Origin: a virus
IMG/VR virus record: IMGVR_UViG_3300034375_013216
Coordinates: 1-50,182 of that record
Strand: one strand, 5' to 3'
DNA: 50,182 bases
Below, piece after piece: positions 10,820-47,885 of the stretch. The notes beneath the pieces are model-generated. The model was given only the letters and a program-made list of their open reading frames with translations, searched no databases and was not told the DNA's origin. How positions within the stretch are numbered: position 1 is the stretch's first letter; every line of letters begins with the position of its first letter. The position numbers and the translations under genes are program-made.

Positions 10820-10837
10820 CTATACGTCTTCGTATAG
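10820..10837 (-). promoter_or_regulatory. Leader stem-loop
   Basis: CTATACG-AAGA-CGTATAG forms a 7-bp stem with a tetraloop in the leader of the 10801 gene, starting within the GTTGAAAGC motif and ending 18 nt before the ATG. It may stabilise the 5' end of the mRNA. No other copy of the motif has this palindrome. Confidence 0.5.
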
Positions 10838-10845
10838 CTTTCAAC
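10829..10845 (-). promoter_or_regulatory. GTTGAAAGC motif (candidate phage promoter) for the 10801 unit
   Basis: GTTGAAAGCTATACGAA. The core ends 35 nt before ATG 10801. The 3' half departs from the TAGGTAG consensus to build the leader hairpin. Confidence 0.6.
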
Positions 10846-10850
10846 GAGAT

Positions 10851-11180
10851 CTAGGATACGCGTACTTTCAGCGTACTCCCGGTTCTGTACATGCCTCCCA
10901 CCGGTACAACTGGATCCGCTGCTGCGGCTGCGGAGTCGTCAGCGAACTCCCTTAAGCCGGTAAAATCGATGCGGGAGTAGGCGATGGGTGTGTTGCCGCT
11001 CACCGTCTTCGCTACACCGTCCAACCCTACATAGTAGAGTTCCTCGTGGACCTCGTTGAGGAACAGCTCGCCCCGCTTCGCGTTAGCGGCATCGGTGTCA
11101 TATAGATCCTGAACGTATTGCTGGCGTTTGGTCGTATCGGCGGTGAACCGGACTCCCCAGCGGGGCATGGGAACAGTCAT
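10851..11180 (-). CDS. Small virion protein (hypothetical)
   Basis: A 109-residue protein beginning MTVPMPRWGVRFTADT. It contains ELFLNEVHEELYYVGLDG and ends PVGGMYRTGSTLKVRVS. The GG.YRTG..LKVR ending is a pattern I associate with small marine-phage structural or fiber-associated proteins. It has its own GTTGAAAGC motif 26 nt upstream of the ATG and is followed by another motif for the next unit, so it is probably transcribed on its own and abundantly. A role in capsid decoration or neck is a guess. Confidence 0.75.
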   Translation of the reverse strand: MTVPMPRWGVRFTADTTKRQQYVQDLYDTDAANAKRGELFLNEVHEELYYVGLDGVAKTVSGNTPIAYSRIDFTGLREFADDSAAAAADPVVPVGGMYRTGSTLKVRVS

Positions 11181-11198
11181 TGCGAAAACTTATCTCTC

Positions 11199-11215
11199 TC
11201 TACCTTGCTTTCAAC
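11199..11215 (-). promoter_or_regulatory. GTTGAAAGC motif for the 11180 gene
   Basis: GTTGAAAGCAAGGTAGA, close to consensus, 26 nt before ATG 11180. Confidence 0.65.
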
Positions 11216-11233
11216 GCCTGGCTGCGCCAGGCG
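11215..11233. repeat. Perfect inverted repeat between divergent genes
   Basis: CGCCTGGC-TGC-GCCAGGCG is an 8-bp perfect stem abutting the minus-strand GTTGAAAGC motif. No T-run follows on either strand, so it is not a standard terminator. It could insulate the divergent units or bind a regulator. Confidence 0.45.
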
Positions 11234-11246
11234 GGTGTGTGGTAAG

Positions 11247-11864: not shown

Positions 11865-11870
11865 GTAGCT

Positions 11871-11887
11871 GTTGAAAGCTAGATAAG
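11871..11887 (+). promoter_or_regulatory. GTTGAAAGC motif upstream of terminator and phoH
   Basis: GTTGAAAGCTAGATAAG lies just after the kinase stop. Unlike all other copies it is about 100 nt from the next start codon, with an intrinsic terminator between. Confidence 0.6.
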
Positions 11888-11965
11888 GGTTGAGGACAAG
11901 CCTTTGACCAAGAGAAACTACTCTTAATCCGGTGTGCGGACACGTTCTCGTGGTCCGCATTTTTT
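11888..11965 (+). ncRNA. Candidate small RNA between kinase gene and phoH
   Basis: If the GTTGAAAGC motif at 11871 is a promoter, its transcript would be only about 65-80 nt long. It would hold a small hairpin (AAGAG-aaacta-CTCTT, 11910-11925) and end in the terminator at 11935-11965. The exact 5' end is unknown. It could be a trans-acting RNA, or an attenuated leader controlling phoH. Confidence 0.35.
11935..11965 (+). terminator. Rho-independent terminator upstream of phoH
   Basis: TGCGGAC-ACG-TTCT-CGT-G-GTCCGCA forms a 10-bp stem with one bulge, followed immediately by six T. It is the only convincing intrinsic terminator seen in the window and lies 15 nt before the phoH ATG. Confidence 0.8.
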
Positions 11966-11980
11966 GTATCTACAGACACA

Positions 11981-12917: not shown

Positions 12918-12937
12918 AGTGAACTTTTTCTCTCCCT

Positions 12938-12954
12938 CTACTATATCTCTCAAC
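12938..12954 (-). promoter_or_regulatory. Variant GTTGAGAG motif for the 12917 gene
   Basis: GTTGAGAGATATAGTAG on the minus strand, with the core 28 nt before ATG 12917. It abuts the plus-strand motif head to head, forming CAACGTTG at the junction. Confidence 0.4.
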
Positions 12955-12971
12955 GTTGAAAGCACTGTAGG
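12955..12971 (+). promoter_or_regulatory. GTTGAAAGC motif for the 12990 gene
   Basis: GTTGAAAGCACTGTAGG, 26 nt before ATG 12990. Its 3' half (ACTGTAGGAATAG) closely matches the copy at 37546-37562 (ACTATAGGAGTAG). Confidence 0.65.
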
Positions 12972-12989
12972 AATAGTAAAACAATCTCT

Positions 12990-15900
12990 ATGGCTACGAA
13001 GGTTAGTGGTGACTTCGGTCTTAGCGGTCAGTCGCTAATCGGTGAGCTAAGGAAACGTGCGCCGAAGTTAGAGGGTCAGGCTAACTTTATCGGTCTTCAG
13101 CGCTCTCTTGCTCTCTCGGATCTCGAAGATCCGACTGAGTCGTTGAACAATGTACTTGATAAAATATCCCTAACTGAATCTGCAGAAAGAAATCAATACG
13201 GCGGACCTTTTAACGCTTTAGACTGGAATGTCACATCGGATTTTGTAGATGAGCAAATTGATAAATCATTTTTGAGTCGACTACAGAATGTTAGTATTGG
13301 CGGTGGATCGCTGGGTAGTTCGGTTTCCACGACACCGAGGATAAGGATTCAAGATAGGCTTAGCTTTCTTAACTCTTTTTATGGTGAGGGTAGTTTTCCA
13401 GGTCTCCACAGTGGTCCGGACGCCATGTTCTACAGGAGTCCAGAGCCAGACCACATCGGATACGTAAAATTTACCTTTAACTCTAGCACAGGATCCGTAA
13501 CAACAACTGAACTAAAAGAACCAGATAAAATCACCAACCTCTCCTTACCGAGTATTTTAGGAACTGAGAGTGCCATAATCCTCGATTTAGTTGAATATGA
13601 GACTGCTGAAGGACTGACTGTTAATTTAAGTGGAACAGGTATTTCCCTGCGTCTCGATTCCCCTAGTACATGGAGTGTAACAGGAACAAGAGCATTGAGT
13701 AGTTTGTCCGGCATCCGGAGCTCGGTGGGAGGACAGGTAACCTTCGCCGCCTTACGTTTCAAGCTGGTCCGACCTTACTCAGTTCTTTACAAACCATCTT
13801 GGTTTACACAGGATCCTGCGGATCCTATTGTTGCTGGAGGAGCCGATGATACTAATCTAACCACCACCAACCGCATTATGCGGAACGATAACGGTACGAT
13901 TAAACCGTACATCGAGAAAGGTTATTGGTATAGCCGCGCATACGTCGAGACACGGTGGACACCAACGGAATATAGTCTTCTCACCAATACCCAAAACAAC
14001 GAAGTCACAGTTGTCGAAGATTCTAATATGAGGTGGCAGCAGCCTCCTTCTCCGATTAGATCAGAAGTATACAACTGGGGTATCCGGTGGGATGGATATT
14101 TGAGAGTCGAGCCGGGCATCTATGCCTTTGAAGTACAAACCAATGCTGCCATCAAAATAGATATGGCAATAGGTTCGGGGGGAGCCTGGGTCGAAGTGTT
14201 TAGTACTGATACGGCTGCCCAAGAGTCAGAGGAAAAATACGTATCAAGTCAATCTTTCAATACCGACAATGTCTCAGGTACATATAAATATATTTTTGGG
14301 ATAAACCCAACATCTGATTGGGTAGCCTATGTTCCTATCACAGTTCGTCTTTACCATGGTGGTCCGGACAAAATAGATGATGAGTTCATTGCCCCTAGTG
14401 AACCTAATCTGTTTATAAAAACAACCTCACTAGCATCAGAGGTCAGTTTTTATAGCGAAAACTACATTATCACTCTGTCTGGTGCCGATGGAAGCTGGAG
14501 CGTAGATAGTAGTGCGTTAGCCGATATAATAACTATTCTTCAAGATACAGACGCGTCGGTATCGTACCGGTTGACGGCAGAGGGGGACGACATCTTTACC
14601 TCTCCAGTCAGCATAGATCTGGCCACTGACAGTACTAATGTTACCAGTACTACGACCGGGCTGTCTGCGGCCACCTATACTTTAACCTTATCCCCCGACC
14701 GCGCAGGGGTAAATTTCAATAACAATCTGACCGCCCTCTGGAAAGGCCGCATCGCATCCCCCAGCCCGATTCACACCGGATACACCGACCTCGCTGATGG
14801 AAGCTATGAACCCAACCTGCAAAAGATACCTTTTGATCTGAGGCCTGAGTGGTGGAAAGTTTCCGAAGGTCACCCGTATAACCTAGATAATCCAGCCAAC
14901 GATGACAACACTCCACTTGATGGGTTTTTAAGGAATGAATTTAAGAGTACACTGAAGTCGGATGTTGAGGGGTTGGGGTTATACGGAGATGGGGGAGAGT
15001 TAAAAAATGGAACTTTTACCATAGAAAATGGTATTATGACAGGAACTGGTACTGAGTTTTTAACTGACTTAGTAATAGGAAGTAAATTTACTATAGAAGA
15101 TACAGAGTTTACAGCTTTAGATATAATTTCTGACTTGGAAGCTAGGGTCTCTCCCGACAACGTGTCAATACCGTCTAGTCTTTCTTTAAGTATCGTCACC
15201 TATAAAGAAGTACCCAACATCATTTTCGGTGAATCGAGGTATTCGGTCAACGATGAGTTAGGGTCCAACTACTGCGGTCTCCGGTTAACACCGAATTTAG
15301 TTGGGGAAGGTGGTAAACTCTCCGTCAGTTCTTTGCCAGTCAATAGCACCGAGTACAACGATGCGACTTTGCTGGGTGAGGACGATCTTGGCGGTTCACC
15401 AAATCACCTTACTGGGGCGAGTGGAAAGGTCTCATCAGAGACAATTAAGCTATTTTTGGCCGATCTAGCCGATACGGCTGATGATAAGTACGATAAATAC
15501 TACACTTTGTTCGTATACACAGATCTAGCTAGTTTTCCGGTATCTGGGGATGTGACGGTGACTTACTTTGATAATACTGACAGTAAGTATTATACTTGGG
15601 ATGGCAGCACATACGTGGAGGATACAACTCCGTCTTCTGATGACCCCACATCATATGGTCTACCAGCATTCTCTGATAACGCCTGGCTATCTCCTATCAC
15701 TGTATCAGTTGTCCAGGCTGGATCTCAGTACTTAACCGCACCTCTGACGATGGTTGTGGAGAGGCTGGAGCTTACCCCTGGGGTATTTTTCCTGCAATTT
15801 TCTACAACCCAGCCTTCTCTTCTCACTGGTGGCGCCGACATCGGTGATTTTAGTGGGGAAGACATTACCTTCTATACCGAATCTAACGTAGCGTTTCAGT

Positions 15901-16421
15901 ATCTCCGTGTAGACAGTGGGGAAGGCATCGCATTTGCCGATGTCCTTAAGTTGACGTACGACGATAGCGATGTATTTCAAGGGGTTTCTAGCGAAGTCCC
16001 TCGGCCCCCCTCCGACCGTGTAACCCCTTTCGGTTTCGATAACCCGCAATATACCGCTGGACTCTGCTATCCCCCTTATAGCATCGCTAACACACTTCTG
16101 TCCGGTATCGCTATTGAAGACGCTGATCTCTACGATGCCAGTACTCCTGTAGGTAATTACGATGTATTTTGGGGAGACCAGAGTAAATCTGATCTGGGCG
16201 GTAAGACTCTTACCGTCACTGAAAAACTAGAATTTCAGCAAGCCGACGACAATGCGGTAGAAGAAATAGTTGGTGGTGTGACCGTAGCTTACGACGATTA
16301 TACGCATCGGCTAAAAATAGATATGCCTTTGTCCGGGTCTTTCGACCCGGATATGCTCGAGCATATTGGTAACCTGGAGAGAGTTAAAGAGTCTTATTAC
16401 GCCTACGTAAAACTGGACTAG
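12990..16421 (+). CDS. Large structural protein with PA14-like domain
   Basis: A 1143-residue structural protein. Residues about 310-400 read as a PA14-type carbohydrate-binding domain: GYWYSRAYVETRW, then WGIRWDGYLRVEPGIYAFEV followed by the NAAIKIDM strand, the usual 'W.G.l.p..G.Y.F....d....l.iD' pattern. The rest is beta-rich with repeated strand/turn segments and few charged clusters. It is transcribed alone from its own GTTGAAAGC motif. A baseplate, fiber-connector or receptor-contact role is likely but unproven. It ends in a stop codon shared as CTAG with the convergent neighbour. Confidence 0.8.
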   Translation: MATKVSGDFGLSGQSLIGELRKRAPKLEGQANFIGLQRSLALSDLEDPTESLNNVLDKISLTESAERNQYGGPFNALDWNVTSDFVDEQIDKSFLSRLQNVSIGGGSLGSSVSTTPRIRIQDRLSFLNSFYGEGSFPGLHSGPDAMFYRSPEPDHIGYVKFTFNSSTGSVTTTELKEPDKITNLSLPSILGTESAIILDLVEYETAEGLTVNLSGTGISLRLDSPSTWSVTGTRALSSLSGIRSSVGGQVTFAALRFKLVRPYSVLYKPSWFTQDPADPIVAGGADDTNLTTTNRIMRNDNGTIKPYIEKGYWYSRAYVETRWTPTEYSLLTNTQNNEVTVVEDSNMRWQQPPSPIRSEVYNWGIRWDGYLRVEPGIYAFEVQTNAAIKIDMAIGSGGAWVEVFSTDTAAQESEEKYVSSQSFNTDNVSGTYKYIFGINPTSDWVAYVPITVRLYHGGPDKIDDEFIAPSEPNLFIKTTSLASEVSFYSENYIITLSGADGSWSVDSSALADIITILQDTDASVSYRLTAEGDDIFTSPVSIDLATDSTNVTSTTTGLSAATYTLTLSPDRAGVNFNNNLTALWKGRIASPSPIHTGYTDLADGSYEPNLQKIPFDLRPEWWKVSEGHPYNLDNPANDDNTPLDGFLRNEFKSTLKSDVEGLGLYGDGGELKNGTFTIENGIMTGTGTEFLTDLVIGSKFTIEDTEFTALDIISDLEARVSPDNVSIPSSLSLSIVTYKEVPNIIFGESRYSVNDELGSNYCGLRLTPNLVGEGGKLSVSSLPVNSTEYNDATLLGEDDLGGSPNHLTGASGKVSSETIKLFLADLADTADDKYDKYYTLFVYTDLASFPVSGDVTVTYFDNTDSKYYTWDGSTYVEDTTPSSDDPTSYGLPAFSDNAWLSPITVSVVQAGSQYLTAPLTMVVERLELTPGVFFLQFSTTQPSLLTGGADIGDFSGEDITFYTESNVAFQYLRVDSGEGIAFADVLKLTYDDSDVFQGVSSEVPRPPSDRVTPFGFDNPQYTAGLCYPPYSIANTLLSGIAIEDADLYDASTPVGNYDVFWGDQSKSDLGGKTLTVTEKLEFQQADDNAVEEIVGGVTVAYDDYTHRLKIDMPLSGSFDPDMLEHIGNLERVKESYYAYVKLD

Positions 16422-18323: not shown

Positions 18324-21300
18324 TCAGACGATTAGTTTCAGGACCTGTCCTGAGGAGTTTTCCCAGCACGTTCCTGCTCCTACCCCTTGAGGGCAAGATG
18401 TCAGAGCGGTGAGTCCAGACTCAGTGATCGACCCGTTTCGAGTTGTCGGGTTTTCGTAGGTAGTAGAGACAATTGTGGTTCCAGAACTCGGGGAGATGTA
18501 TGTAAATCCTAAATCGATTCTGATTTTTTTCAAATTTTTGTACTTAACAGCCAATTCTGATTCCGTGGTAACCTGAGTCGCGTTTCTTTTTGTTTTGTAG
18601 TAGTCCCCACTGACAAAAGAACCTGGTACTTGCCGAGATTGAGTGGACACCTGAGTGTAGGATGTAGTGGAGTTACCAGTGTCATCGGCTATAGTAATTT
18701 CCTCATATACCTGAAACTGTTCAATGCGATTCAGAGAAGTGACGATACCCGGTCCTGCTGAAACTCCAGTTGGGAATATTTCCTGCTGAGAGTAATTTGA
18801 GTATTTATTGTCTGAGGATAGTTTGTTGCCAGAGAGTTTTACTAAGCAGTTATTAAATCCAGTACTAGACTCTAGATTTGATACCTCTTCGATAATTTTT
18901 GTTATCTCGAGAGAGGGCAAGTTGTTGTTAGACAGGTCTACTGTGATTCTTCTGGTATCACCAAAGAAAATCTTGGACAGACTACCAGATTCATATTCAG
19001 AGATCATGTTGTTGCTTAAGTCAACAGCATTATACGAGGTGTTAACTACCTTATTGAAGCCTGAACGGATATTTAATTTACCAGACAACTTACAATTTCT
19101 TGCTCTGAATTGTGTGAGCTCGGTAAAACTAGTAGCAAACCAGCCGCTAATGTCTATAGTCTTTCGACCGAAATAGAAGTTGGAGCCTGATCCGCTGATA
19201 TTGTTACTGATCACAACCTCGGTGTCTTTCACACTAAGTACCGTAGCTACCTTAGGTCCGCCTGCACTCAACCTGACTTCATCATTGACCTGTACTTTCT
19301 TTTTCATATCAGTCCCCCCAGTCAGCTTATAAATCACATCGGCTTCACTGCTGCTGCTGGAGGGGGTCAGAGCGGTGAGAGACAATCCGCTGATAGTGGT
19401 TTCCGGGTCACTATCCCGCACACATGCCCCACGTAAAGACGCCACAGACCAATCTGACCTATACGTGCTAGGAAGAGATCCGTTCAGATCGACATATCTT
19501 ATTCCAGCCTCAGAACTCCCCTCGAAGTTGGGCAATATAGCTCCGCCTCCCCCGACGTTCATCTTCCAGGCATTTATCGTCCGTACATCTCTAGAAAAGT
19601 TGTCGTTAGTCGGAGTTATAGACAAGCTGGACAAATCATAGAAATCGGACCGGTTGATCTCCAGAGTAATAGACTTAGTCTCTGTTTCTTTAAACTCCTT
19701 TAATGGGAATTTAGGGAACCTCCCGGTTAACCTACTCCCAATACAATAAAATAGCCCGAGGTCGTATAGATACTGGAGATCGTTAGACCGAATGTAGTGA
19801 GCATTGTTATAGTAGTGTACGTAGAAATTTTTTAGTTTATGGTTACTACCAGAACCTCTGTTCGGTGCGAAGTTGACAGGTAAGAGGTAGGGTATGGTAT
19901 TATCGGTTACCGGATCGATGCCATTACAGGATCCAATGTCGATTGTCAACATAGCTGAGGTTTCATCTACTGTCCCTAGAGATGGCATGGGGCCATCGGT
20001 ATTAGATCCGTAGAGACTGAGTGAGACTAGTTTAGGTGTTTTCAACGGCGATGTTTGAAAGCTCGATATTGGTGTATCAAATTTGACACCGCCGGAAAAT
20101 CCGGCGTTAAGCTGCTGGAGCTGCGTCCATTCACCGTTTTGAAGGTCTATCGATACATTCGTACGGTTGATATCGATAGACGTCGTAGCAGCTTTCCAGG
20201 CTGACCAGTCTGAGCTGTCGTCAGGGTTATTGATGAATCCGGAGATTGCGTGTGTTTGCGAGTGACGCCCACCGATATTAAAATACCCCATATTGTACTT
20301 GGACACATACCCGGCATCAGCCACGTCGGTCGATGTTCCTACATCAGTGATGTCTCCTGACGCACCAGAACCATAAATGTTATACGAGGTGAGTTTTCCG
20401 TTGTTGGCTATCTTGGGCAGGTTGTTGAACAAAAACCTGTATAGCCTGTCCTCTACACTGTTCGACCAGTCCAGGGTTTTGAGACCAGGAAATACATCAT
20501 CGAATCTCGGGCTACGACCGTAGAATCGGTCGCCGAGCCTTAAGGTCTCTAGGGCTGAGAATACCCGATAGTCGGTATTCTCAGTGCGGGATTGGTTTAG
20601 CAGATATTTCTCAAATATATCATCCGACCAATCGTCCCCGTCCTCATTAAGGAACACACCGGTCTGAGGTACTGTCAAGTAGCTGACAGCGGTGTAGAGT
20701 GGGGTCTTGTTCGCTATCAAGCTTACCCCAGTGATATTGGTAGTCGTGGCTGAGGGATTCCTAACATCGAACCAGCCCATTGGGCCATTGCGCCACCGGT
20801 CACCTGAAGTAGATAAGTCCAAGGTGCGAAGTTTGGTTCTCAGGGTTTTTAACCACAGGGGTAAAATAGTCATCGAACCACCAGACATCTTGAAAGTCTC
20901 GAGGTTGCTGAATCCTATCAGGCCGAGATCTTTTTGATCGGGGAACTCTTTAACATCGATGCCAGAGAATTCTATTCCTTTAACCTTCAAGGGGTTGACA
21001 TAGATGTATAGGTACAAATCGTAGATGTTCTGGAAACCTGTTGTGGTGATATCGATGTTGGCGGTAAAGTCTGGTACACCTTCTGCCGGATTACTGATTG
21101 TTACGGGCAGAAATTCAATCGGAGTGGTGTTAGGGCGTTGTTGTGCAGGTTGGATTTGCAGTCCGTAGAAGAATCTGTCTGAGTTTGTCGTATTTTCTGT
21201 GAAAGTAAATTTAATAGACCCAGTTGCCATCCGGCAATACACCCGAAGAGGGGTGTTTTTAGTGGCCAGCAGCCTTACCGGCTCTGAGGTGCCGGTATTA

Positions 21301-21981: not shown

Positions 21982-21998
21982 TCTATCTAGCTTTCAAC
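21982..21998 (-). promoter_or_regulatory. GTTGAAAGC motif for the 21968 unit
   Basis: GTTGAAAGCTAGATAGA, 21 nt before ATG 21968, near consensus. Confidence 0.65.
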
Positions 21999-32299: not shown

Positions 32300-32316
32300 G
32301 CTACCTAGCTTTCAAC
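32300..32316 (-). promoter_or_regulatory. GTTGAAAGC motif for the 32283 unit
   Basis: GTTGAAAGCTAGGTAGC, consensus form, 24 nt before ATG 32283. Confidence 0.7.
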
Positions 32317-32326: not shown

Positions 32327-32335
32327 TGGTATAAT
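32327..32335 (+). promoter_or_regulatory. Extended -10 promoter for 32363-32904
   Basis: TGGTATAAT (TGn-TATAAT), 27 nt before ATG 32363. Same form as the promoter of the thioredoxin-sigma operon. It lies back to back with the minus-strand GTTGAAAGC motif. No clear -35. Confidence 0.5.
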
Positions 32336-38390: not shown

Positions 38391-38818
38391 CAGTTGAAGG
38401 TGAAGCTGTCGCCGACGAAAGTGAGCTCGATGGTGCTGGGGTTACCACTGGTACGATCAACAACGCCGAAGTTGAGGCTGGTCATTTGGGCGTCGGGCAC
38501 GATAATGGTACGGGTGCCGAGGGGCTGAGGGTCTTCGCCACAGGTGACAGGTGTTACCGTTAGACTCAAAAAGTCGCAGTTAGAGTTTTTCCAAAAATCG
38601 ACCACATCGTAGTGAATGGCGGGGTCGAAGGGTACGGCGAGGGTAAATTCAGCGAGGGTCTTGGGGCCCTTTAGCTGATAGATGCGTTGAGTTTGCCCGT
38701 CGGGATATTGTGCGGTAGCAGCGGTGTCCCGGATACCACTGAACGAGGTGAAATAGTGGGCCCAGGGAGAAGCGGTCACCAAATATTGGCTTTGTGTGGA
38801 CGGCCTGATTTTGATCAT
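38390..38818 (-). CDS. Tail-tube-like or tail-completion protein
   Basis: A 142-residue protein. The C-terminal segment (MTSLNFGVVDRTSGNPSTIE then LTFVGDSFTFN) has the beta-sandwich ending of phage tail-tube-type proteins. The middle reads IYQLKGPKTLAEFTLAVPFD. Length is close to small contractile-tail tube proteins. The portal gene lies just upstream, with its own motif. Alternatives are a tail-tube initiator or a baseplate adaptor. Confidence 0.6.
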   Translation of the reverse strand: MIKIRPSTQSQYLVTASPWAHYFTSFSGIRDTAATAQYPDGQTQRIYQLKGPKTLAEFTLAVPFDPAIHYDVVDFWKNSNCDFLSLTVTPVTCGEDPQPLGTRTIIVPDAQMTSLNFGVVDRTSGNPSTIELTFVGDSFTFN

Positions 38819-38846: not shown

Positions 38847-38863
38847 TCTACCTAGCTTTCAAC
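38847..38863 (-). promoter_or_regulatory. GTTGAAAGC motif for the 38818 unit
   Basis: GTTGAAAGCTAGGTAGA, consensus form, 36 nt before ATG 38818. Confidence 0.7.
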
Positions 38864-38887: not shown

Positions 38888-40813
38888 CTACATATAGTAA
38901 GGCGCAAAGTATGACCAGTAGCCGGTTGTCTCCGGATCTAGGACAACGCATTCGTTGTGAACGAAGCGGCGGTTGAGGCGATAAGTGAGGGCGTAGGTGT
39001 TAATCAACTGCCCGACTTGTTCGGCTGGTAACTCGTCTCCCCGTAACACAATATTCTCGTATTCCACCAAATCTCTGCGGAGCCTATCGTGCTCGGGCGG
39101 AGTGGTCCGAGGAATCGAGCGTATCTCATCTAGGAGGCGTTTCGCGGTGTAGATGATATCTCCGGGGCTGGTGTACTCATCGATAACCACACGCGAGGTT
39201 TCCGCTTCATTACCACTAATGCCAACCGCGATGCGGTCCCAACCAACCTCGTCCAGGCCTCCTTGCGCAAAGCGCTCAGCGATCTTTTTGGCGACTTTGT
39301 CGCGGGTGGTCTGATCCTTGAGGTCTCCGTCCTCATCGAATTCGGTGAAGTCGAGGTTTTCAGAGGATATGGGTGTCTGGTTAGATAGCATCTGGCCGAT
39401 GGCGCGTTCGCCCAGCACTGGGGTATCACTTTCACCCGACTCGACCGATTGTTGTTCTCCCATCCCTGGCATGCCCGGCATCTCCGACATATCCATTTTC
39501 TCAAGAGAGGGGATGAGTAGCTTATCCCGTAGCCAGTCGAGATCGGTGACTTGATAGCCAACAGCCTGGAGCTGGGTTAGAATCTGGACGGTCTTGACCG
39601 GATCTTCCCCGCGTTGTTCGATGTCGCTGAAGTCGCGATAGATGCGAGGGATGGCAGCGTTGGGGTAATTGAGCTCAACGATCCAGCGGACCAATGTTGA
39701 GTTAATCAATTGGTCTAATTCGTTGGAAAAAGCCTTTGCCTTTCTAATTCTTACTGAATCTGCTACTTGATCTCGGGCAAAACTTCCTACACCAGACCCT
39801 TCCTGACCTACTACGGATTCACCGTTGATCAAATAACTAATTTGCTTATCGATGTATGTGATTAGAGTTTCGTAGAGCTCTGGGCGGCCCTCAGATTTTA
39901 AAAATTCTACGGACATTTCGTCAGGAAGGACTATCGAAGTCTCTTGACCTAAACGTTGTAATGCCGTAAATAGAGATTTTACCTCTTCTTCAGGTGTGCC
40001 TAGGCTAAACTTACCCACAGCCGTAGGCGTGGTGTGCTTATCCGCATACTGGAGCCAGAAGGACATCAAGGTGCGGCGGAATTCTACTAAGCTGTAGATG
40101 ACGCGTCCGAGTCCGGTTCCATAAACATCTGCCAGGTTTTTATAAGCATGGTGTCGATGAATAATCATCGATCTCATTGGTACCGGTAACCCCTCGACCG
40201 GTGAGTTTACAGTAACAAGGCGTGGCGAAACTGATCCATCTTCATTCAATACGAACAAAAATCTTCTGGGGTCTCGAATAAGAAGCTGTGAAGGTACTAC
40301 ATAAGATCCTTGTCTTGCCCAACAAATCTCAGCTATGCTAATCCCTAGGATTAGGGATTCACACATACCTTTGACAAAAGAGTCAAATCCGCTACTGTGG
40401 GCGACAAGCATATCTCTGCCCCGGCTTTGTCTACCACCACTTCCTAGACGGTAAATTGTTTGACGAACAAATTCTGCAATTTCCTCATCTTTATCACTAT
40501 CTGATGCTGGAGCAACAACCCACTCTCTTTGGATAATCTCATCAGCAAACTTATCGAACGCGGATAGAACTTGGCCATCGTTAAAGAGCCTGGTGTATTG
40601 CTCCACCGCCCGAGGACCGCCGCCGCCCTCGGTTGTAAGAATGTCGTCGCGCCTCGTTAGAAGGGTATTACCGGCTACGGTGGGTACGCCGCTAAATTGA
40701 TAAGGATCTCCTACATACCCGGCTAGCTGACCCTGGCTTAACCCAAGTCCGTAAAGACGGTCATTGTAGCCAGTGCGGACTATGCGCTTCTTCTCTGCAG
40801 GTAGATCAGCCAT
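38888..40813 (-). CDS. Portal protein (DUF935 / Mu gp29-like)
   Basis: A 641-residue portal vertex protein through which DNA enters and leaves the head. Matches to the DUF935 family include FNDGQVLSAFDKFADEIIQR, MCESLILGISIAEICWARQG, LLIRDPRRFLFV, MRSMIIHRHHAYKNLADVYG, RVIYSLVEFRRTLMSFWLQY and YIDKQISYLINGESVVGQEG. The C-terminus is Met/Pro-rich then charged. A GTG at 40828 opens the frame further, but ATG 40813 lies 26 nt from the GTTGAAAGC core like other units. About 39720-40560 (the portal core) is more AT-rich than the two ends. Confidence 0.9.
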   Translation of the reverse strand: MADLPAEKKRIVRTGYNDRLYGLGLSQGQLAGYVGDPYQFSGVPTVAGNTLLTRRDDILTTEGGGGPRAVEQYTRLFNDGQVLSAFDKFADEIIQREWVVAPASDSDKDEEIAEFVRQTIYRLGSGGRQSRGRDMLVAHSSGFDSFVKGMCESLILGISIAEICWARQGSYVVPSQLLIRDPRRFLFVLNEDGSVSPRLVTVNSPVEGLPVPMRSMIIHRHHAYKNLADVYGTGLGRVIYSLVEFRRTLMSFWLQYADKHTTPTAVGKFSLGTPEEEVKSLFTALQRLGQETSIVLPDEMSVEFLKSEGRPELYETLITYIDKQISYLINGESVVGQEGSGVGSFARDQVADSVRIRKAKAFSNELDQLINSTLVRWIVELNYPNAAIPRIYRDFSDIEQRGEDPVKTVQILTQLQAVGYQVTDLDWLRDKLLIPSLEKMDMSEMPGMPGMGEQQSVESGESDTPVLGERAIGQMLSNQTPISSENLDFTEFDEDGDLKDQTTRDKVAKKIAERFAQGGLDEVGWDRIAVGISGNEAETSRVVIDEYTSPGDIIYTAKRLLDEIRSIPRTTPPEHDRLRRDLVEYENIVLRGDELPAEQVGQLINTYALTYRLNRRFVHNECVVLDPETTGYWSYFAPYYM

Positions 40814-40831
40814 GTGGCTATAGGTCACTCT

Positions 40832-40848
40832 TCTCCCTAGCTTTCAAC
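40832..40848 (-). promoter_or_regulatory. GTTGAAAGC motif for the portal gene
   Basis: GTTGAAAGCTAGGGAGA, near consensus, 26 nt before ATG 40813. It falls just after the stop of the 40855 gene. Confidence 0.7.
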
Positions 40849-41040: not shown

Positions 41041-41873
41041 GCCCTCTGAGCCGATCGCATCCTTGTCTCCATTTTGTTTAGTTCTTCTTGCCATTGTCTC
41101 ATGAAGTGTGGTAGATGTTGTTGCCATCTTGAATTCCAACCCTCGGACATGTGTTCGAGGTCAGGAGGTGGAGTTTTTGTAAACTCCCTGCGAAGCAGGT
41201 GGATGGCGGACCTGACAAACTCCTGATTATTCTGATCATAACACTTATCGAAGGTATCTGGGGATATGTAGGGGTAGGATTTAGCGAATTCGACGAAGAG
41301 AGGTGAGCTGGAGAAACTGGCCGATTTAATAACCTCGTATCGTTCAGCCAATTCTTCGAGTTGTTCGGAGACGATTCGGGGGTCCCAGTTCACAAGTGAA
41401 CTGGAGATTAGCTCGACGGAACGATGTGTAGTGCGGACACCATGCTTCTCCGCCGCCTTATCAAACTCTGTCCGTAAGGACAGGGCCGACTTCGTGTCTT
41501 TGGCCTGGGGCCAACGCCCCATCCGCTCACCGCACCAGGAGATGGTGATTAGGAGGGTTAGGAGAGGAATGGGGAGACTGTCCGGATTCTCCAGAGCTTC
41601 CGCTCGCTTCGAGGCAGCTTGGGATACTTTGGCCTTAGCGATCGATCCTATCTCGGCGAGGCCACCCGACGTCTCCGCATTGAAGTCGGCATCGGTGTCA
41701 GCCGATACCGGGCTTCTCTCCTTCACTGTCGCGCTCAGCGCGAGCATCTCCCTTTCGTGCCTGTGCTGTTCCCGTATCCGCCACTTCTCGTGCTCGAGAA
41801 CCTCTCGAACCAGCTCGACGGGTAGGTTTAGCCGACCCAGAGCTAGCAGGTTGTCCAGAAGGTCCTGGTCCAT
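41019..41873 (-). CDS. Helical protein, possible assembly chaperone
   Basis: A 284-residue helical protein starting at ATG 41873 behind AAGGTG. The N-terminus (LLDNLLALGRLNLPVELVRE and EKWRIREQHRHEREML) and middle (LSLRTEFDKAAEKHGVRTTH) are strongly helical; the C-terminus is basic and Trp-rich (RWQQHLPHFMRQWQEELNKM). Not assigned to a family. It overlaps the upstream gene by 176 nt and the downstream frame by 22 nt or more. With a possible frameshift extension, the layout is like paired tail-assembly chaperones (gpG/gpGT), although a head-side chaperone next to the portal is also possible. Confidence 0.7.
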   Translation of the reverse strand: MDQDLLDNLLALGRLNLPVELVREVLEHEKWRIREQHRHEREMLALSATVKERSPVSADTDADFNAETSGGLAEIGSIAKAKVSQAASKRAEALENPDSLPIPLLTLLITISWCGERMGRWPQAKDTKSALSLRTEFDKAAEKHGVRTTHRSVELISSSLVNWDPRIVSEQLEELAERYEVIKSASFSSSPLFVEFAKSYPYISPDTFDKCYDQNNQEFVRSAIHLLRREFTKTPPPDLEHMSEGWNSRWQQHLPHFMRQWQEELNKMETRMRSAQRAWKKSVE

Positions 41874-42291
41874 CCGAGCACCTTAGCACATCCTGCTTGC
41901 AGGTGGCAACGATGTCCCGGTGAGACCAGGAGTGGGTGAGGCGAGTCACCGACTGAGCTGGCATCCGGCCATGATCAACTCCCCGGAAGAGCAAAGCATT
42001 TAGCTCCCTTTCGGCCGATGCGCCCGGCTCATCGTAGAGGGTTATGCGGGTGCTTTCGGAGTCCGTGGACTCCAGGGCGAGGTGAAGGGCTGCGAGGGTT
42101 AGGTGGTCGAGGCCGCAGAACACGAGGTGGTGATAGCCTGCTAGGGAAGGTAGAGAGCCGGGGGTCAAGATAATACTATCGGCTTGGGTGTTCTCGAGTT
42201 CGGCGAGTAGGCCGGACAAATGATCGATCATTTTGCCGAGGTCACGCTCTGACCGGCTTCGTTCGGTGTATAGTAGGGCGATTTTTAGCAT
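41698..42291 (-). CDS. Hypothetical protein with overprinted C-terminus
   Basis: Frame starts at TTG 42321, but ATG 42291 (MLKIALLYTERSRSERDLGK) fits a motif 22 nt upstream. Residues about 1-138 look globular (IILTPGSLPSLAGYHHLVFC, LTLAALHLALESTDSESTRI). The last ~59 residues (GPSGQPASSGSAKPTRRAGS...) are low-complexity and Arg/Ser-rich; they lie wholly within the N-terminal coding of the next gene in another frame, as expected for overprinting. It shares a divergent promoter region with the 42366 gene. No function recognised. Confidence 0.65.
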   Translation of the reverse strand: MLKIALLYTERSRSERDLGKMIDHLSGLLAELENTQADSIILTPGSLPSLAGYHHLVFCGLDHLTLAALHLALESTDSESTRITLYDEPGASAERELNALLFRGVDHGRMPAQSVTRLTHSWSHRDIVATCKQDVLRCSDGPGPSGQPASSGSAKPTRRAGSRGSRAREVADTGTAQARKGDARAERDSEGEKPGIG

Positions 42292-42305
42292 GAGGTATGC
42301 GAGTC

Positions 42306-42322
42306 TATATTTATCTATCAAC
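42306..42322 (-). promoter_or_regulatory. Variant GTTGATAG motif for the 42291 unit
   Basis: GTTGATAGATAAATATA, core 22 nt before ATG 42291, 9 nt from the plus-strand motif in divergent orientation. Weaker match to consensus. Confidence 0.35.
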
Positions 42323-42331
42323 TAAATTTAG

Positions 42332-42348
42332 GTTGAAAGCCAAGTAGA
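42332..42348 (+). promoter_or_regulatory. GTTGAAAGC motif for the 42366 unit
   Basis: GTTGAAAGCCAAGTAGA, 25 nt before GTG 42366. Confidence 0.65.
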
Positions 42349-42365: not shown

Positions 42366-45300
42366 GTGAGCGCGGCTACGGAACTGGTTCGGGAACACAT
42401 CAAGGTTATTGTAACCCGTGGCCTGGATGAATATGGGAATTTTCCCGTACAAGCGGACGAGGTTCGGTTTTACCGCGTAGCGGTCGACCTCTTACTCGCG
42501 GTAACCGACCGCATTGAGAGAGGTGATGTCGTGTCCCTCGATCCGTTGAAGCCGATGTTGGTGGCCGGAGTCTTCACCTTAAACTTCGATGCCACGCGGT
42601 CGCTAGCGGTCTTCGAGGCCGTAGCGAAGTCGTTGTATAGGGATTTGGAGGAGAACGGTGTAGTCGACCCCGACACGATACGGGAATACCAGAAGTATGA
42701 AAGGCTATTGGCCGAGATCATTAGCGATGCTAGGCAACTGCTTACGCAGAGTACGAGGGAGTATTTAGGCGGTATTGAGCAGTACGGGGTGGCCGAGAGA
42801 GTTGTAGATTTGCCCCTGACCACATCGAGGTTATTGATAAAAAACAGACAACCTATCTCTTCCACCGTCCCTCGGTCGCGTTTACGTGATCGGTATACGG
42901 ACGTCTTTGATAGGGCGATTCAGTCCAGGGCCAAAGCAATCGTCGGTGCGGCAAAGGAGATCAACGAGGTGATTTCGGATTCTCAGATCCCTGAGCCTTT
43001 GGGCTCGGTCGACACCGACCTTCTCGTAGCGACGTTTGCGGGAGAGGGCAAGAAGGTATATGCCGATGCAGAGAGATTATATAACTTCTCCGTTGAATTT
43101 GGGGGGTACGAAGGTTCAGTAGTCGGTGCGGTGGACTATCAGGCCCGGTACTATGAATATCTGATGGCGATGTCGTACGGCAAGGTGTTGCCGCAGGGTG
43201 TGCTAGAGGGTAATTTCGGAGATTTCGAAAGCATCTATGGCTACAGGACTACATCGGAGAGGGTTCAGGGCCTTAAGTTCCTCGAGACGTTGTATACAAC
43301 CCGTTCGGCCAACCAGACAGTCGGACCTGGCAGCCCCGTAGCAGAGAGGTACGGTGTATCCGGCATCCGAGATCGGTATGTGCCACCCGTAGGATCCCCT
43401 GATTTCGTATCCCTCGCTCTCGAGGCGGTGTATGTGTTATGCCTGAAGGCCGGAGATACCATCGCTTCGGTTCGTAAGCAGGGCTTCTCGCTCCAGGCTA
43501 GTGTGTTGGGCAGGGTGTTTCCCGCATCCAACGATGCGGCTGGGCGTACCGGCGGAATGACGGGCGCGGTGGGAGGCTTGCTAAAGGCCCACAGAGCATT
43601 GTTCGCACTGACGGGCTACGAACCCGATCTCGGTGAGTTCGGTGGGCGGTTCAGGGAGTTGGCTAACCTCCTCACTGATTTGACACAGACGCTTCGGACA
43701 GCGGGTTTCAGACCCGGAGGCTACGTACCCTCCCTCGACCTCACCTACTACGAAGCTGATAGAGGTGTGATAGAGGAGAGATTGGCAAATCTCGGGTTTA
43801 GCCGAGCGGAAATCCAAAACATCCTCTCAGCCACCAACTTCACTGAACTTCTGGATAAATTCGCTCCATTGACCGACTCGCAAGATATTATCTCATTCTT
43901 CCGTGCATTCGACCTAACCAAATTGCTGTATGAGTTTGGTGGCCAAGATGCCATAGAGAGGTATATCGATTTCTTATATGGTAACGAGCCAGTGATTCGC
44001 TTGCTCGAGTTGCTAGATGTTAACCGCTCCCTGACAAGCAAGGTAGCAGCGAGTAAGTACTCGAAGCTCATCGGCTATCTGGTGCCGCTAACCTACGCTG
44101 TCGACCCTGATCAACTCATCTCCCTCGACGCCATCTTGCGTCGAAACAACCTCGACTTGTTCGAGTCTATCTCACTCCTGGTTCAGCAAGGGGTACCGAC
44201 TGTAATCAAAGATAAAAACTCCATTTCTATGTTGTCGGGCATGGTGGCGCAGATGGTTGGAGGAACAGACTATGCCCCTCACCAACCGATCTGGAATAAG
44301 CTCATCTCTGAGTCAGCAGGAAACATCGGCCCGGATGTTGGCGGTATTTATGACCGAGCAGAAGGGATCACACCGACCGAATTGTATGCCTATCTCAACG
44401 GGCCTAGCGCGACATCACCCCTCGGTCAGCTCCTGGATGGGGTAAGAGGGGGGAGGATGACCTCGCTACTACGATATTGTAATATCTTTGGGCTACTATA
44501 CACCTTGTCTCCGTATCGGAATTCGGGACAGTTGGTGAATAAATCGGCCGAAGAGTTCGAAGAGATCCTGAACCTAACTGATACTCTCGAGACGTTGTCT
44601 GAGAGGCTATATGTAGCCTATTTAATCTTACAAGACAAAAGCTCATCGATGCAGAGCGAAGTCTCGGTCTACACTGATCCGGCTATCCAAGCCCAGAACA
44701 AAGAATTCGATGCGTTGGTGGAGCTGGTAAGCTCCGGAACCATCGATGCGGATGCCTACAAGATTTCGGAACCCCCGGGCATCGGAAACTCTCGGATACC
44801 CAACGGAATCCGCATCTCTAATTCCCTCCTGCCCGAAGAAGCTGCTCTCGTGTCTACGCGAGGCACTGGGCTAGGTATATTTACTCAGCAGGCGAGTGAG
44901 AGCGAGGAGGGAGGGTACCTTCGCATCGCGGTGTCGAATTTGTTGGCGGCGGGCATTGAGGGTATAGGAGACACACCGGTGCGAGAGGAGACGGGCGGAG
45001 GATCCGGTCCCACCTCTGTCCCCGACTACACCGTATCTTATAGTTTGCCGGTCCCCTCGACCACATCTGCTACGCCATCGGCTTTCGACCCATTGAGATC
45101 TTGCCAGAAGTTCGGCACCACAAGCTGCACTGAGCTGGGATACGATACCAACTCTCTGTGTTCGAAAGGATACAACAAATCTTTGTTTCCGGAGACCGGG
45201 TACGGACAAGACCCTACCTTCTCACTGGGCATCGTGCCCATCGATCGAGCGCTAGGAAGTGGTTTAAGTCAAAGTACATCATATACTACCGTACCCACAA

Positions 45301-45521
45301 ATCACCCCCAGCAACCTTTCACTGTGTCCGGTCTCACCGACCTCTCTCGAACCAGAATCCTAAAGGATTCGGAGATGTTGTGTGCGGGCTTTAAGGACCC
45401 CTTCGAATATGGTGCGTGTATGAACCTACTCAAATGTAAGAGGTTTAAGCCTCCGACCTCTGGCCGCTATTGGCTCCAGTATTGTCCGAGCACACTGCAG
45501 GGTGGGAGGTTGAGACCATGA
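42366..45521 (+). CDS. Large helical virion protein
   Basis: A 1051-residue protein starting at GTG. The N-terminal 700 residues are largely helical (VDLLLAVTDRIERGDVVSLD; LSLTK-like blocks such as LIGYLVPLTYAVDPDQLISL). The C-terminal 130 residues are Cys-rich and Ser/Thr/Pro-rich (CQKFGTTSCTELGYDTNSLC, ... SGRYWLQYCPSTLQ). Helical core plus a Cys-rich end suggests a baseplate wedge, tape-measure or internal virion protein; no family is certain. It heads a two-gene unit; the next gene starts in the ATGA overlap at its stop. Confidence 0.8.
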   Translation: MSAATELVREHIKVIVTRGLDEYGNFPVQADEVRFYRVAVDLLLAVTDRIERGDVVSLDPLKPMLVAGVFTLNFDATRSLAVFEAVAKSLYRDLEENGVVDPDTIREYQKYERLLAEIISDARQLLTQSTREYLGGIEQYGVAERVVDLPLTTSRLLIKNRQPISSTVPRSRLRDRYTDVFDRAIQSRAKAIVGAAKEINEVISDSQIPEPLGSVDTDLLVATFAGEGKKVYADAERLYNFSVEFGGYEGSVVGAVDYQARYYEYLMAMSYGKVLPQGVLEGNFGDFESIYGYRTTSERVQGLKFLETLYTTRSANQTVGPGSPVAERYGVSGIRDRYVPPVGSPDFVSLALEAVYVLCLKAGDTIASVRKQGFSLQASVLGRVFPASNDAAGRTGGMTGAVGGLLKAHRALFALTGYEPDLGEFGGRFRELANLLTDLTQTLRTAGFRPGGYVPSLDLTYYEADRGVIEERLANLGFSRAEIQNILSATNFTELLDKFAPLTDSQDIISFFRAFDLTKLLYEFGGQDAIERYIDFLYGNEPVIRLLELLDVNRSLTSKVAASKYSKLIGYLVPLTYAVDPDQLISLDAILRRNNLDLFESISLLVQQGVPTVIKDKNSISMLSGMVAQMVGGTDYAPHQPIWNKLISESAGNIGPDVGGIYDRAEGITPTELYAYLNGPSATSPLGQLLDGVRGGRMTSLLRYCNIFGLLYTLSPYRNSGQLVNKSAEEFEEILNLTDTLETLSERLYVAYLILQDKSSSMQSEVSVYTDPAIQAQNKEFDALVELVSSGTIDADAYKISEPPGIGNSRIPNGIRISNSLLPEEAALVSTRGTGLGIFTQQASESEEGGYLRIAVSNLLAAGIEGIGDTPVREETGGGSGPTSVPDYTVSYSLPVPSTTSATPSAFDPLRSCQKFGTTSCTELGYDTNSLCSKGYNKSLFPETGYGQDPTFSLGIVPIDRALGSGLSQSTSYTTVPTNHPQQPFTVSGLTDLSRTRILKDSEMLCAGFKDPFEYGACMNLLKCKRFKPPTSGRYWLQYCPSTLQGGRLRP

Positions 45522-46270
45522 AGGCGTACTGTAAGTATGTAGAGAACTCGCCGATACTGGAGTTTGGACCAGGAGTTGAATACTTCAATTATGTATCGGG
45601 AGAGAAACCGATTCTCCATGCAATGATTCGAAAGCAGTTTACCGATTCGATGGAGGTGGAAGTTGAGGCTAATGGCCAAGACATCGAGAACTTCAAACTC
45701 ACCAATCAATCCCTCTTGACATGGGATGATCATTGGGTTGAAAGAGATGCGATGGTGGACCCGAGGATTGCCAGCCTCAACCTTCAACGAAATAGGCTGG
45801 TCTATGTGAATATCAATCTCCCTCGGCCCAGCTTGCAGACTCTCAACCTCGAGGGCAACTCGGGCCTCCAGCACCTTTACATCCACGAGGCCCCTAACCT
45901 CCAACGCCTCGATGTTAGTGGATGTATAGGGCTACAGTACATTTCGCTGGGGCTAAACTACAGTCTCCGCGAGGTTATTGCGAAGGACTGCGGGATGTCC
46001 ACCGAGACGCTCGAACAACTACTGAGGGACTTCCGGCCGGTGTATACGGCTAGCGCGAATGTGAGGGGTATTGGAACATTTCGGAAAAAGTATGAGACGG
46101 TGCTGGATTTGCGAGGTAATAATATCGACTGGGGGAATAGGAAAATTGCCAGTAAACTACGTTTACTCCTCTCAAACAATTGGGTGGTGAGATGGGACGC
46201 TGATCCTCCACCACAGATAGTTCCCCCTTCGTTGTATCGGTTTTTCGTTGAAAGCAAGGTAGAAGTTTGA
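45518..46270 (+). CDS. Leucine-rich-repeat protein
   Basis: A 250-residue protein. ATG 45518 is in the ATGA overlap with the upstream stop, behind GGGAGG; the frame opens at 45470 inside the upstream gene, which is less likely. Residues about 80-150 are leucine-rich repeats (IASLNLQRNRLVYVNIN, LQTLNLEGNSGLQHLYIH, LQRLDVSGCIGLQYISLG), later VLDLRGNNIDWGNRKIASKL. Leucine-rich repeats usually bind proteins. Co-transcribed with the large helical protein. The C-terminus RFFVESKVEV is encoded by the next unit's GTTGAAAGC motif. Confidence 0.8.
   Translation: MKAYCKYVENSPILEFGPGVEYFNYVSGEKPILHAMIRKQFTDSMEVEVEANGQDIENFKLTNQSLLTWDDHWVERDAMVDPRIASLNLQRNRLVYVNINLPRPSLQTLNLEGNSGLQHLYIHEAPNLQRLDVSGCIGLQYISLGLNYSLREVIAKDCGMSTETLEQLLRDFRPVYTASANVRGIGTFRKKYETVLDLRGNNIDWGNRKIASKLRLLLSNNWVVRWDADPPPQIVPPSLYRFFVESKVEV
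46247..46263 (+). promoter_or_regulatory. GTTGAAAGC motif inside the 45518 coding sequence
   Basis: GTTGAAAGCAAGGTAGA encodes V-E-S-K-V plus one further base at the C-terminus of the leucine-rich-repeat protein and lies 28 nt before GTG 46284. Confidence 0.65.
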
Positions 46271-46283
46271 GTCGACCGGCAAA

Positions 46284-47192
46284 GTGGCAGATCTTAGGGC
46301 TAGATTTATTGAGGATTATGCTGGCGGCTTATTGAATGTCGCGAGGCAGGAGTTGTCGAGCACCGGTGAGGTGCTAGCCCAAGACGGGTTCGTTGAGGGG
46401 TTGTCGCTGTTCGTTGAAGACGGTAGGGGGGTCAAGAGTGGCTTGAGGTTAGGTTCGGCGTTAGCGGAATGCATCGATCCGACTACGGAAACCGGGATTC
46501 TCAACGTCCGGAGTGCGGACCGGACCTACGCGAAGATTCGGGATCTCAAGGCGTTCGCCACCGCTTGCGCGTCAGCGCAGGGTGCGTTAAGCGAATCGGT
46601 AGCCGAATCGTTCACAAACCTCGAGGGAGCGTTTGAAAGCCTGGAAGCCGATGTTCAGAGTTACCGGACGCAGCTCAATGAGTTGATTGATACAACGGAT
46701 CTGGGGGTGAGTGGACTCTCTGATCGACTCGATGGTATCGATACGAGGCTTACTCAGATAGATGGTGATACCTCGAGTCTCTCAGCTCGCATAGCGACTC
46801 TCGAGAATACTCTGGCCGCTGTGCAGGTGGTTACTAGTGAGGTGGAGGTAACCCAGACTACGCCCGCGTTAGCCGATGACGCTGTGGGCACGCTGGATAT
46901 CGCTGGCACTCGCTACTACGCGATCTCGAATGTCACTACGACCGTTCCGGCCTGGGTTACCATCTATACATCCGAGGCAGCTAGGTCGGCCGACACTAGG
47001 TCGGAGGGCGATCCGGCTCCGTTGAATAGCGGCATCGTTCTCGATGTGGTCACGACAGGAACGACGTTGTCGCAAGATTTGCTTCCTTTTGCCGTAGGCA
47101 AAAGCATCGATGGGGCGTTTTATGTCCGGGCAGTAAATCGCTCTGGTAGTACCGTATCGGTCAAAGTAAATATCTCTTACATCCCCTTGTAG
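46284..47192 (+). CDS. Coiled-coil structural protein
   Basis: A 302-residue protein starting at GTG. Residues about 100-185 form a coiled coil (FESLEADVQSYRTQLNELID, LSDRLDGIDTRLTQIDGDTS, LSARIATLENTLAAVQVV). The C-terminal domain (PAWVTIYTSEAARSADTRSE then GDPAPLNSGIVLDVVTTG) resembles a beta module I associate with marine phage fibers or tail proteins. Likely a trimeric fiber or adaptor. Its 3' end overlaps the convergent gene by 16 nt. Confidence 0.75.
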   Translation: MADLRARFIEDYAGGLLNVARQELSSTGEVLAQDGFVEGLSLFVEDGRGVKSGLRLGSALAECIDPTTETGILNVRSADRTYAKIRDLKAFATACASAQGALSESVAESFTNLEGAFESLEADVQSYRTQLNELIDTTDLGVSGLSDRLDGIDTRLTQIDGDTSSLSARIATLENTLAAVQVVTSEVEVTQTTPALADDAVGTLDIAGTRYYAISNVTTTVPAWVTIYTSEAARSADTRSEGDPAPLNSGIVLDVVTTGTTLSQDLLPFAVGKSIDGAFYVRAVNRSGSTVSVKVNISYIPL

Positions 47193-47542
47193 GCCTCTAA
47201 CTCAACCAGAACATCTAGGACGGTTTCGTGAGAGAGTCGGACAACGATGGCAGGGCCGACCTTGCGGAGTACGTAGAATAAAATACCCTCGCGTCGCTCA
47301 ATGTCGTCGGTGAATACAGTTCGGAAAGTCTTATCGTGGATGTCTTCGCCACCCAACATCTCATAGACGGTGTCGGGATCGAACACCCACATACAATTAC
47401 TCCGATCCGCCGTAGCAATGTAGAGGGCGAAGGGGGTGTGATGCTCGAGGATATAAGCGAGACACTGGACCACACCCTCGATGTCGCGTGATTCCGAGAG
47501 GGATTGGGCGAGGATTTCCTTTTCGTGCTCGGTGTTAAACAT
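47177..47542 (-). CDS. Hypothetical 121-residue protein
   Basis: Begins MFNTEHEKEILAQSLSESRD. A possible alpha/beta fold (GVVQCLAYILEHHTPFALYI, CMWVFDPDTVYEMLGGED, FYVLRKVGPAIVVRLSHETV). No family recognised. ATG overlaps the upstream stop as TGATG. Last gene of the 47850 unit; its 3' end overlaps the convergent 46284 gene by 16 nt. Confidence 0.7.
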   Translation of the reverse strand: MFNTEHEKEILAQSLSESRDIEGVVQCLAYILEHHTPFALYIATADRSNCMWVFDPDTVYEMLGGEDIHDKTFRTVFTDDIERREGILFYVLRKVGPAIVVRLSHETVLDVLVELEAYKGM

Positions 47543-47850
47543 CAGATCTTCACTGATCTCGACTTCCCTGACAAGCCGAGGTGTTGGGCGATCTCTCTGC
47601 TCATGCGAGATGCTAGCTTCGCATCAGTAGCCGAATAGAGACTAGGCTTAGGCTCACCGGAATCTCCGGCAACTGGAACATCCGCTGACGCGGGGCTGGA
47701 ATCCACTGGTCCGGGGATATTCTTGTCCAACTGCTCTCGGATAATCTCGCTCTCTGAGGTTGGTGTTGGCTCGTTGCTGGTTTCTAAGTCCGGAGTTTCT
47801 CCGGGCCCATTGGTGCCACGAAGCGATTTGTTCTTTGGTGAAATTGGCAT
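47542..47850 (-). CDS. Hypothetical Pro/Ser-rich protein
   Basis: A 102-residue protein. Residues 1-70 are disordered-looking, Pro/Ser/Glu-rich (TNGPGETPDLETSNEPTPTS), and the C-terminus is a short basic helix (ATDAKLASRMSREIAQHLGL). Such a tail-plus-helix layout fits a scaffold, linker or assembly peptide, but none is recognised. First gene after a GTTGAAAGC motif. Confidence 0.65.
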   Translation of the reverse strand: MPISPKNKSLRGTNGPGETPDLETSNEPTPTSESEIIREQLDKNIPGPVDSSPASADVPVAGDSGEPKPSLYSATDAKLASRMSREIAQHLGLSGKSRSVKI

Positions 47851-47868
47851 GAGACATTGTGTGCAACC

Positions 47869-47885
47869 TGTACTATGCTTTCAAC
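47869..47885 (-). promoter_or_regulatory. GTTGAAAGC motif for the 47850 unit
   Basis: GTTGAAAGCATAGTACA, 26 nt before ATG 47850. Confidence 0.6.

Follow-up and report, generated by a model that had tools for sequence, protein, structure and literature searches.

A putative single-block late promoter in a relative of cyanophage S-TIM5 and the SigF-like phage sigma factor predicted to read it

The repeated motif and its surroundings

The window analysed here is the whole 50,182-nucleotide (nt) record IMGVR_UViG_3300034375_013216. By protein comparison it is part of the genome of an uncultured phage related to cyanophage S-TIM5, an isolate whose genome is complete. Its portal protein is 55-56% identical to those of S-TIM5 and near relatives, and its sigma factor, encoded at 5159-5875, about 43%. 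Thirteen exact copies of a 9-base-pair (bp) block, GTTGAAAGC, and two variants are distributed over the window, most of them shortly ahead of a gene. We consider it highly probable that this motif is a single-block late promoter of S-TIM5-like cyanophages, which the SigF-like phage sigma factor would read together with the host core RNA polymerase. The sites are given below with the position of each 9-mer and the distance from its end to the start codon; "relatives" are the seven long ones, namely six long contigs (G001-G006) and S-TIM5.

10830-10845, minus strand: predicted late promoter of the unit 10082-10810; exact site (10837), 26 nt; at the orthologous gene in 7/7 relatives
11200-11215, minus strand: predicted late promoter of the unit 10851-11180; exact site (11207), 26 nt; present in 7/7 relatives
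11871-11886, plus strand: predicted late promoter of a short RNA that ends in a terminator upstream of phoH; exact site (11871), 101 nt
12939-12954, minus strand: predicted variant late promoter, GTTGAGAGA (12946), 28 nt; adjoins the divergent 12955 site
12955-12970, plus strand: predicted late promoter of 12990-16421 (1143 amino acids); exact site (12955), 26 nt
21983-21998, minus strand: predicted late promoter of 18324-21968 (1214 amino acids); exact site (21990), 21 nt
31396-31411, minus strand: predicted late promoter of 29129-31381; exact site (31403), 21 nt
32301-32316, minus strand: predicted late promoter of 31975-32283; exact site (32308), 24 nt; present in 7/7 relatives
37547-37562, minus strand: predicted late promoter of 36805-37527; exact site (37554), 26 nt
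38848-38863, minus strand: predicted late promoter of the tail tube gene 38390-38818; exact site (38855), 36 nt; present in 7/7 relatives
40833-40848, minus strand: predicted late promoter of the portal gene 38888-40828; exact site (40840), 26 nt
42307-42322, minus strand: predicted variant late promoter, GTTGATAGA (42314), of 41698-42321, 22 nt; relatives have GTTGAAAG, GGTGAAAG or GTTTAAAG here, except G001
42332-42347, plus strand: predicted late promoter of 42366-45521 (1051 amino acids); exact site (42332), 25 nt
46247-46262, plus strand: predicted late promoter of 46284-47192; exact site (46247), 28 nt
47870-47885, minus strand: predicted late promoter of 47542-47850; exact site (47877), 26 nt

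All 13 exact copies and both variants counted in the initial annotation were recovered at the same positions and on the same strands, and dinucleotide shuffles of the window (n = 100) contained a mean of only 0.34 exact copies and at most three. The core stands 21-36 nt ahead of a start codon, in the direction of the gene, at 14 of the 15 sites, as had been described; the exception is 11871, the site ahead of phoH. When genes were called automatically, 11 of the 13 exact sites lay 8-60 nt before a start on the same strand, compared with 3.5% of random positions. The spacing to the start codon is variable, with a peak at 20-30 nt.

From 237 non-redundant sites in relatives, inspected from −60 to +50, we derived the consensus c-GTTGAAAGC-N4-TAG-purines, in which the spacing of the TAG (T 76%, A 84%, G 70%) is fixed. 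The initial annotation had reported an (A/T)AGGTAG block after most cores; a second block does exist, in the form of the TAG four nt past the 9-mer, but AGGTAG itself is exact at only 5 of the 15 sites. A pattern with a six-base gap (GTTGAAAGC-N6-TAGGTAG, 22 bases) was also tried and rejected, as it gave one weak match and its spacing is wrong. No other position in the inspected interval is strongly conserved, in agreement with the earlier impression that nothing upstream is, and no −35 element was found around the 237 sites. A T and two purines a few nt past a 9-bp block resemble a −10 element followed by a transcription start site. If the A is taken as +1, the block occupies −14 to −6, the register of the 8-bp box of phage T4; with the G as +1 instead, the central AAA would begin at −11.

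Back-to-back divergent copies occur in the window (12946-12963 and 42314-42340) and also in relatives, mostly with gaps of 0, 1 or 9 bp, and such pairs often make an 18-bp palindrome. An opposite-strand copy lies no more than 30 nt upstream at 28 of 236 sites, in 15 cases without any gap. Since two such polymerases could hardly bind together, the divergent units are probably read in alternation. A different kind of pair is found where the left-pointing late motif at 32308-32316 (minus strand) stands back to back with a right-pointing host-type box, TGGTATAAT, at 32327-32335 (plus strand), downstream of which two small plus-strand open reading frames (32363-32545 and 32611-32904) lie within the minus-strand structural block. 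The same kind of host-type/late pair is present at 104.6 kilobases (kb) in S-TIM5.

Conservation among relatives and association with virion genes

Relatives were collected from viral contigs with the portal and sigma proteins as queries. G001-G006, S-TIM5, T4 and cyanophage S-CBWM1 were covered whole and Cr-LKS4, a phage of Cylindrospermopsis whose sigma factor is more distantly related, over its first 100 kb. We used a blind search that ranks, genome by genome, the words enriched 8-70 nt ahead of same-strand gene starts. The T4 control returned TATAAATA first, indicating that the method recovers a known late promoter. The top word was GTTGAAAGC in the window, GTTGAAAG(C) or overlapping words in G001-G003, GTTTAAA(G) in G004-G006 and GTTTAAAG in S-TIM5, where TGATATAAT appeared lower on the list. 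In S-CBWM1 it was GGGTAAA(A), i.e. GGGTAAAA, and the first 100 kb of Cr-LKS4 yielded no single-block motif, only ribosome-binding and host-like words. Across eight genomes, 62-86% of the exact copies in each are placed as promoters, compared with 3.5-5.9% of random positions.

Sites are also retained at orthologous genes. The orthologues of 10082, 10851, 31975 and the tail tube gene carry one in all seven relatives even though the proteins are only 41-78% identical, and its form follows the clade: GTTGAAAG (once GGTGAAAG) in G001-G003, and GTTTAAAG or GTTTAAAT in G004-G006 and S-TIM5. A site precedes the portal gene in nearly all relatives, several other site-bearing genes of the window keep theirs in only some of them, and orthologues of window genes that lack a site mostly lack one as well.

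The genes so marked in S-TIM5 are predominantly virion genes. Annotation places 19 of its 30 motif-headed genes in the virion or packaging classes (Fisher p = 6e-8), against only one of the 14 genes that have the host-type box TGnTATAAT ahead of them. The metabolic stretch of S-TIM5 at 9-39 kb has a single promoter-placed GTTTAAA, at 21.8 kb. Among contigs with an S-CBWM1-related sigma factor, 30 of 56 copies of GGGTAAAA are promoter-placed, and this motif, which includes the GGTAA element known from host SigF promoters, is likely to be the late promoter of the S-CBWM1 lineage (MG450654.1; L193-L199; L244-L252).

The phage sigma factor, its operon and competing explanations

The predicted reader of the motif is encoded near the left end of the window.

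4800-4808, plus strand: host-type extended −10 box TGTTATAAT (TGnTATAAT), 28 nt ahead of the operon formed by gene 4837 and the sigma gene
4837-5154, plus strand: gene of 105 amino acids with no PHROG assignment, first in the sigma operon; precedes the sigma gene in relatives
5159-5875, plus strand: phage sigma factor, putatively of a SigF-like group 3 type, and predicted reader of the motif; Sigma70_r2, E = 5.9e-10

In scans against named families, the nearest models to the sigma factor were SigBFG (SigB/F/G; E = 1.8e-9) and SigF (E = 1.9e-8), both far below their curated cut-offs. It aligns over its full length with SigA, RpoS, RpsD and sigma-28 chains, and fold prediction gave sigma2, sigma3 and sigma4-like helical parts (mean predicted local distance difference test score 77), the arrangement of the parts being unreliable (predicted template modelling score 0.37). 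No relatives of it were confirmed in bacterial genomes. Each of the seven long relatives has exactly one gene with sigma-70 region 2. No multisubunit RNA polymerase of the phage was found in a search whose control worked; a T7-type polymerase gave no match either, a weak negative as no control genome scored.

The type of region 2.4 helix co-segregates with the type of motif in a set of about 100 loci that contains much redundancy: LNRS.TFQ occurs with GTTGAAAG, VNR[CN]LQFHM with GTTTAAAG, and the helix of S-CBWM1 with GGGTAAAA. The S-CBWM1 sigma factor is distantly related and has the highest SigF-model score of the three sigma factors compared. These patterns support the reading that the sigma factor at 5159 recognizes the motif, although the link is correlative. 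A phage sigma factor with a new promoter class had been proposed in the initial annotation; fixed geometry, the lack of any other conserved block, conservation at orthologues, virion-gene bias in S-TIM5, the single sigma gene, the failure to find a multisubunit polymerase and co-segregation argue strongly for it. The contrast with the layout of T4 late promoters drawn there was wrong.

That the sigma operon has no late motif directly in front of it, as noted earlier, is right and is explained by the conserved host-type promoter. Among 35 aligned rows from related loci, in which a few genomes appear twice, 34 have a TGNTA-type box at the conserved position before the operon, in 22 cases as exact TGNTATAAT. 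Because host-type boxes are not unusual by count within the window, the evidence for this one is the conservation of its position. The 105-amino-acid gene is kept in 7/7 long relatives with 45-82% identity across the seven genomes; together with the sigma gene it looks like a two-gene operon, and its product is possibly a partner of the sigma factor or an anti-sigma factor. A homing endonuclease gene (3941-4807, plus strand) lies between the terminase gene and the operon, its 3' end overlapping the host-type box; four of the seven long relatives lack a counterpart of this gene.

In the cascade that we propose, host SigA would first express the sigma gene from the box at 4800-4808. The phage sigma factor would then steer the host core RNA polymerase to the −10-type block GTTGAAAGC, and transcription would start about six nt past the block, at either the A or the G of the TAG, so that mRNA leaders would measure roughly 15-30 nt. 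The order of infection would be host sigma factor, phage sigma factor, virion genes.

Several observations weigh against this interpretation. In the sigma tree the first two helix types are separated by one split, with L206 and L223 as basal members of the S-TIM5 clade, such that the joint change of sigma factor and motif is a single event confounded by descent; the tree shows no repeated independent co-changes, and there is no replication beyond the distant S-CBWM1 clade. The sigma factor keeps a sigma4-like domain though no −35 or −32 block is present. In some relatives the late motif also heads a longer unit that contains the sigma gene: in many, a copy on the same strand lies about 9.2-9.5 kb ahead of that gene (in L002 at 522-530, with the sigma gene at 10001), a spot that falls outside the window, and late read-through into the sigma gene is possible.

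Mosaic genomes provide a further point of this kind. An eight-gene block of G005 (73.0-91.8 kb; L171-L172) has 53-76% identity to the window's clade, versus 26-47%, whereas the rest of that genome belongs to the S-TIM5 clade and its only sigma factor is S-TIM5-type; three promoters in the block are still GTTGAAAG. An assembly error is unlikely since L067, an independent contig, shows the same mixture at two genes. It appears that a block of genes was swapped between two S-TIM5-like clades together with its promoters. Either the S-TIM5-type sigma factor tolerates G at position 4 or the swapped genes are poorly expressed; G or T at this position would be no absolute barrier, and strict one-to-one specificity of sigma factors lacks support.

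Alternatively, the motif might bind a MotA-like phage activator that recruits host sigma-70 polymerase, with the 5159 sigma factor having another role. T4 middle promoters, which use an activator recruiting the host sigma-70 polymerase, set a precedent, and phage proteins such as the 105-amino-acid neighbour could be activators. This explanation is nonetheless improbable, because the host −10 it predicts at a fixed distance is not conserved beside the motif, the downstream element is TAGRRR and not TATAAT, and host-type boxes mark other genes. We regard it as very unlikely that a host sigma factor (e.g. SigF or a group 2 factor) reads the motif while the phage sigma factor is a helper or unrelated: the phage protein is SigF-like and host SigF reads GGTAA at −12, but the motif differs between phage clades along with the phage sigma factor and lacks the −32 TAGGC of host SigF promoters. 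A signal acting in RNA (ribosome binding, leader stability or processing) is scarcely credible, for although the motif is near start codons in most cases, its variable spacing peaks too far away for a Shine-Dalgarno sequence, no RNA structure surrounds the sites (mean z about 0), a terminator separates the conserved 11871 site from the next long gene, and three S-CBWM1 copies lie ahead of tRNA genes.

The 11871 site itself leads into one additional feature.

11885-11966, plus strand: predicted RNA of about 80 nt, ending in a terminator (hairpin 11934-11960 and a T run) before phoH (11981)

The conserved terminator before phoH suggests that this site probably drives a short RNA, and 11885-11966 (fold z = −2.6) may represent a small RNA or an attenuator. 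About 80 nt past the site, the nine aligned sequences have a hairpin followed by six T, weakly so in L026; the hairpin sequence varies among relatives while the fold is kept in most rows, and TTTTTTGTATCTA 3' of the hairpin is nearly invariant. The region had no match in Rfam. RNAalifold applied to a MAFFT alignment of the small RNA gave a consensus without pairs, although most rows fold singly as a terminator.

Our literature search, which did not extend to the original S-TIM5 paper, found no phage paper with GTTGAAAGC and no report of late promoters in S-TIM5-like phages. Relatives of the window's phage are common among viral contigs, and the motif and its likely sigma factor offer a means of recognizing late units when environmental contigs from the lineage are annotated. 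The three naturally occurring pairs of sigma factor and motif, together with the natural swap, also make it testable how a lone −10 block is read by a sigma factor.

Comparison with known promoter systems

The late box of T4 is a single 8-bp block that has T at −13, lies roughly one helical turn ahead of the start and is not accompanied by a −35 element (PMC2988020). The motif had been described in the initial annotation as unlike it, which holds for the sequence but not for the layout, T4 late promoters likewise being single blocks without a −35 (PMC2988020). Both systems have an 8-9 bp block at −10 (a position predicted here) with AAA in its middle, on both strands and near the start codons of virion genes, and in both the reader is a small phage-encoded member of the sigma-70 family (PMC2988020), as predicted for the phage studied here. 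They differ in sequence (GTTGAAAGC in the window and GTTTAAAG in S-TIM5 versus TATAAATA in T4), in the conserved downstream TAG found here, and in the reader, here a protein closest to SigF models with predicted sigma3 and sigma4-like parts, whereas gp55 resembles sigma-70 in domain 2 only. A profile of the window's sigma factor had no significant match among T4 proteins, and the T4-type clamp gp45 (PF02916) was detected in the T4 control but not in S-TIM5 or six relatives, a search confined to that clamp family. As the system departs from T4 in three features (sequence, gp55 and the T4 clamp), we classify it as a probable variant of the phage-sigma late promoter and not as a T4 system.

The Bacillus phage SPO1 has a sigma cascade (gp28, gp33/34) with two-block middle and late promoters (−35 and −10). 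The expression of a phage sigma factor by the host sigma factor for a later class of genes would be common to both, but the promoters here have one block. The freshwater cyanophage Ma-LMM01 is likewise a cyanobacterial phage with timed gene classes, but it has no phage sigma factor and uses SigA-like two-block promoters throughout (PMC5780444).

Among the group 3 sigma factors of cyanobacteria, SigF alone has region 3; the elements it recognizes are TAGGC at −32 and GGTAA at −12 (PMC2758279). Its type 3 promoters are related to the present system through the nearest sigma models (SigB/F/G and SigF) and through the GGTAA within GGGTAAAA of S-CBWM1; they differ in the GGTAA element, which is replaced by TTGAA in the window clade and by TTTAA in the S-TIM5 clade. 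TAGGC at −32 is exact in 1 of 73 sites and absent in all three phage groups. A tentative scenario, to which we give slightly less than even chances, is that a cyanophage lineage captured a SigF-type sigma factor as a late switch and lost the −32 contact, and that the −12 element drifted from GGTAA (S-CBWM1) through TTTAA (S-TIM5) to TTGAA (window clade) together with the region 2.4 helix. It would constitute a second, independently evolved single-block system beside that of T4, operating without gp55 or the T4 clamp, whose specificity is probed by natural mosaics. More generally, the findings hint that late promoters of the single-block kind may have arisen more than once.

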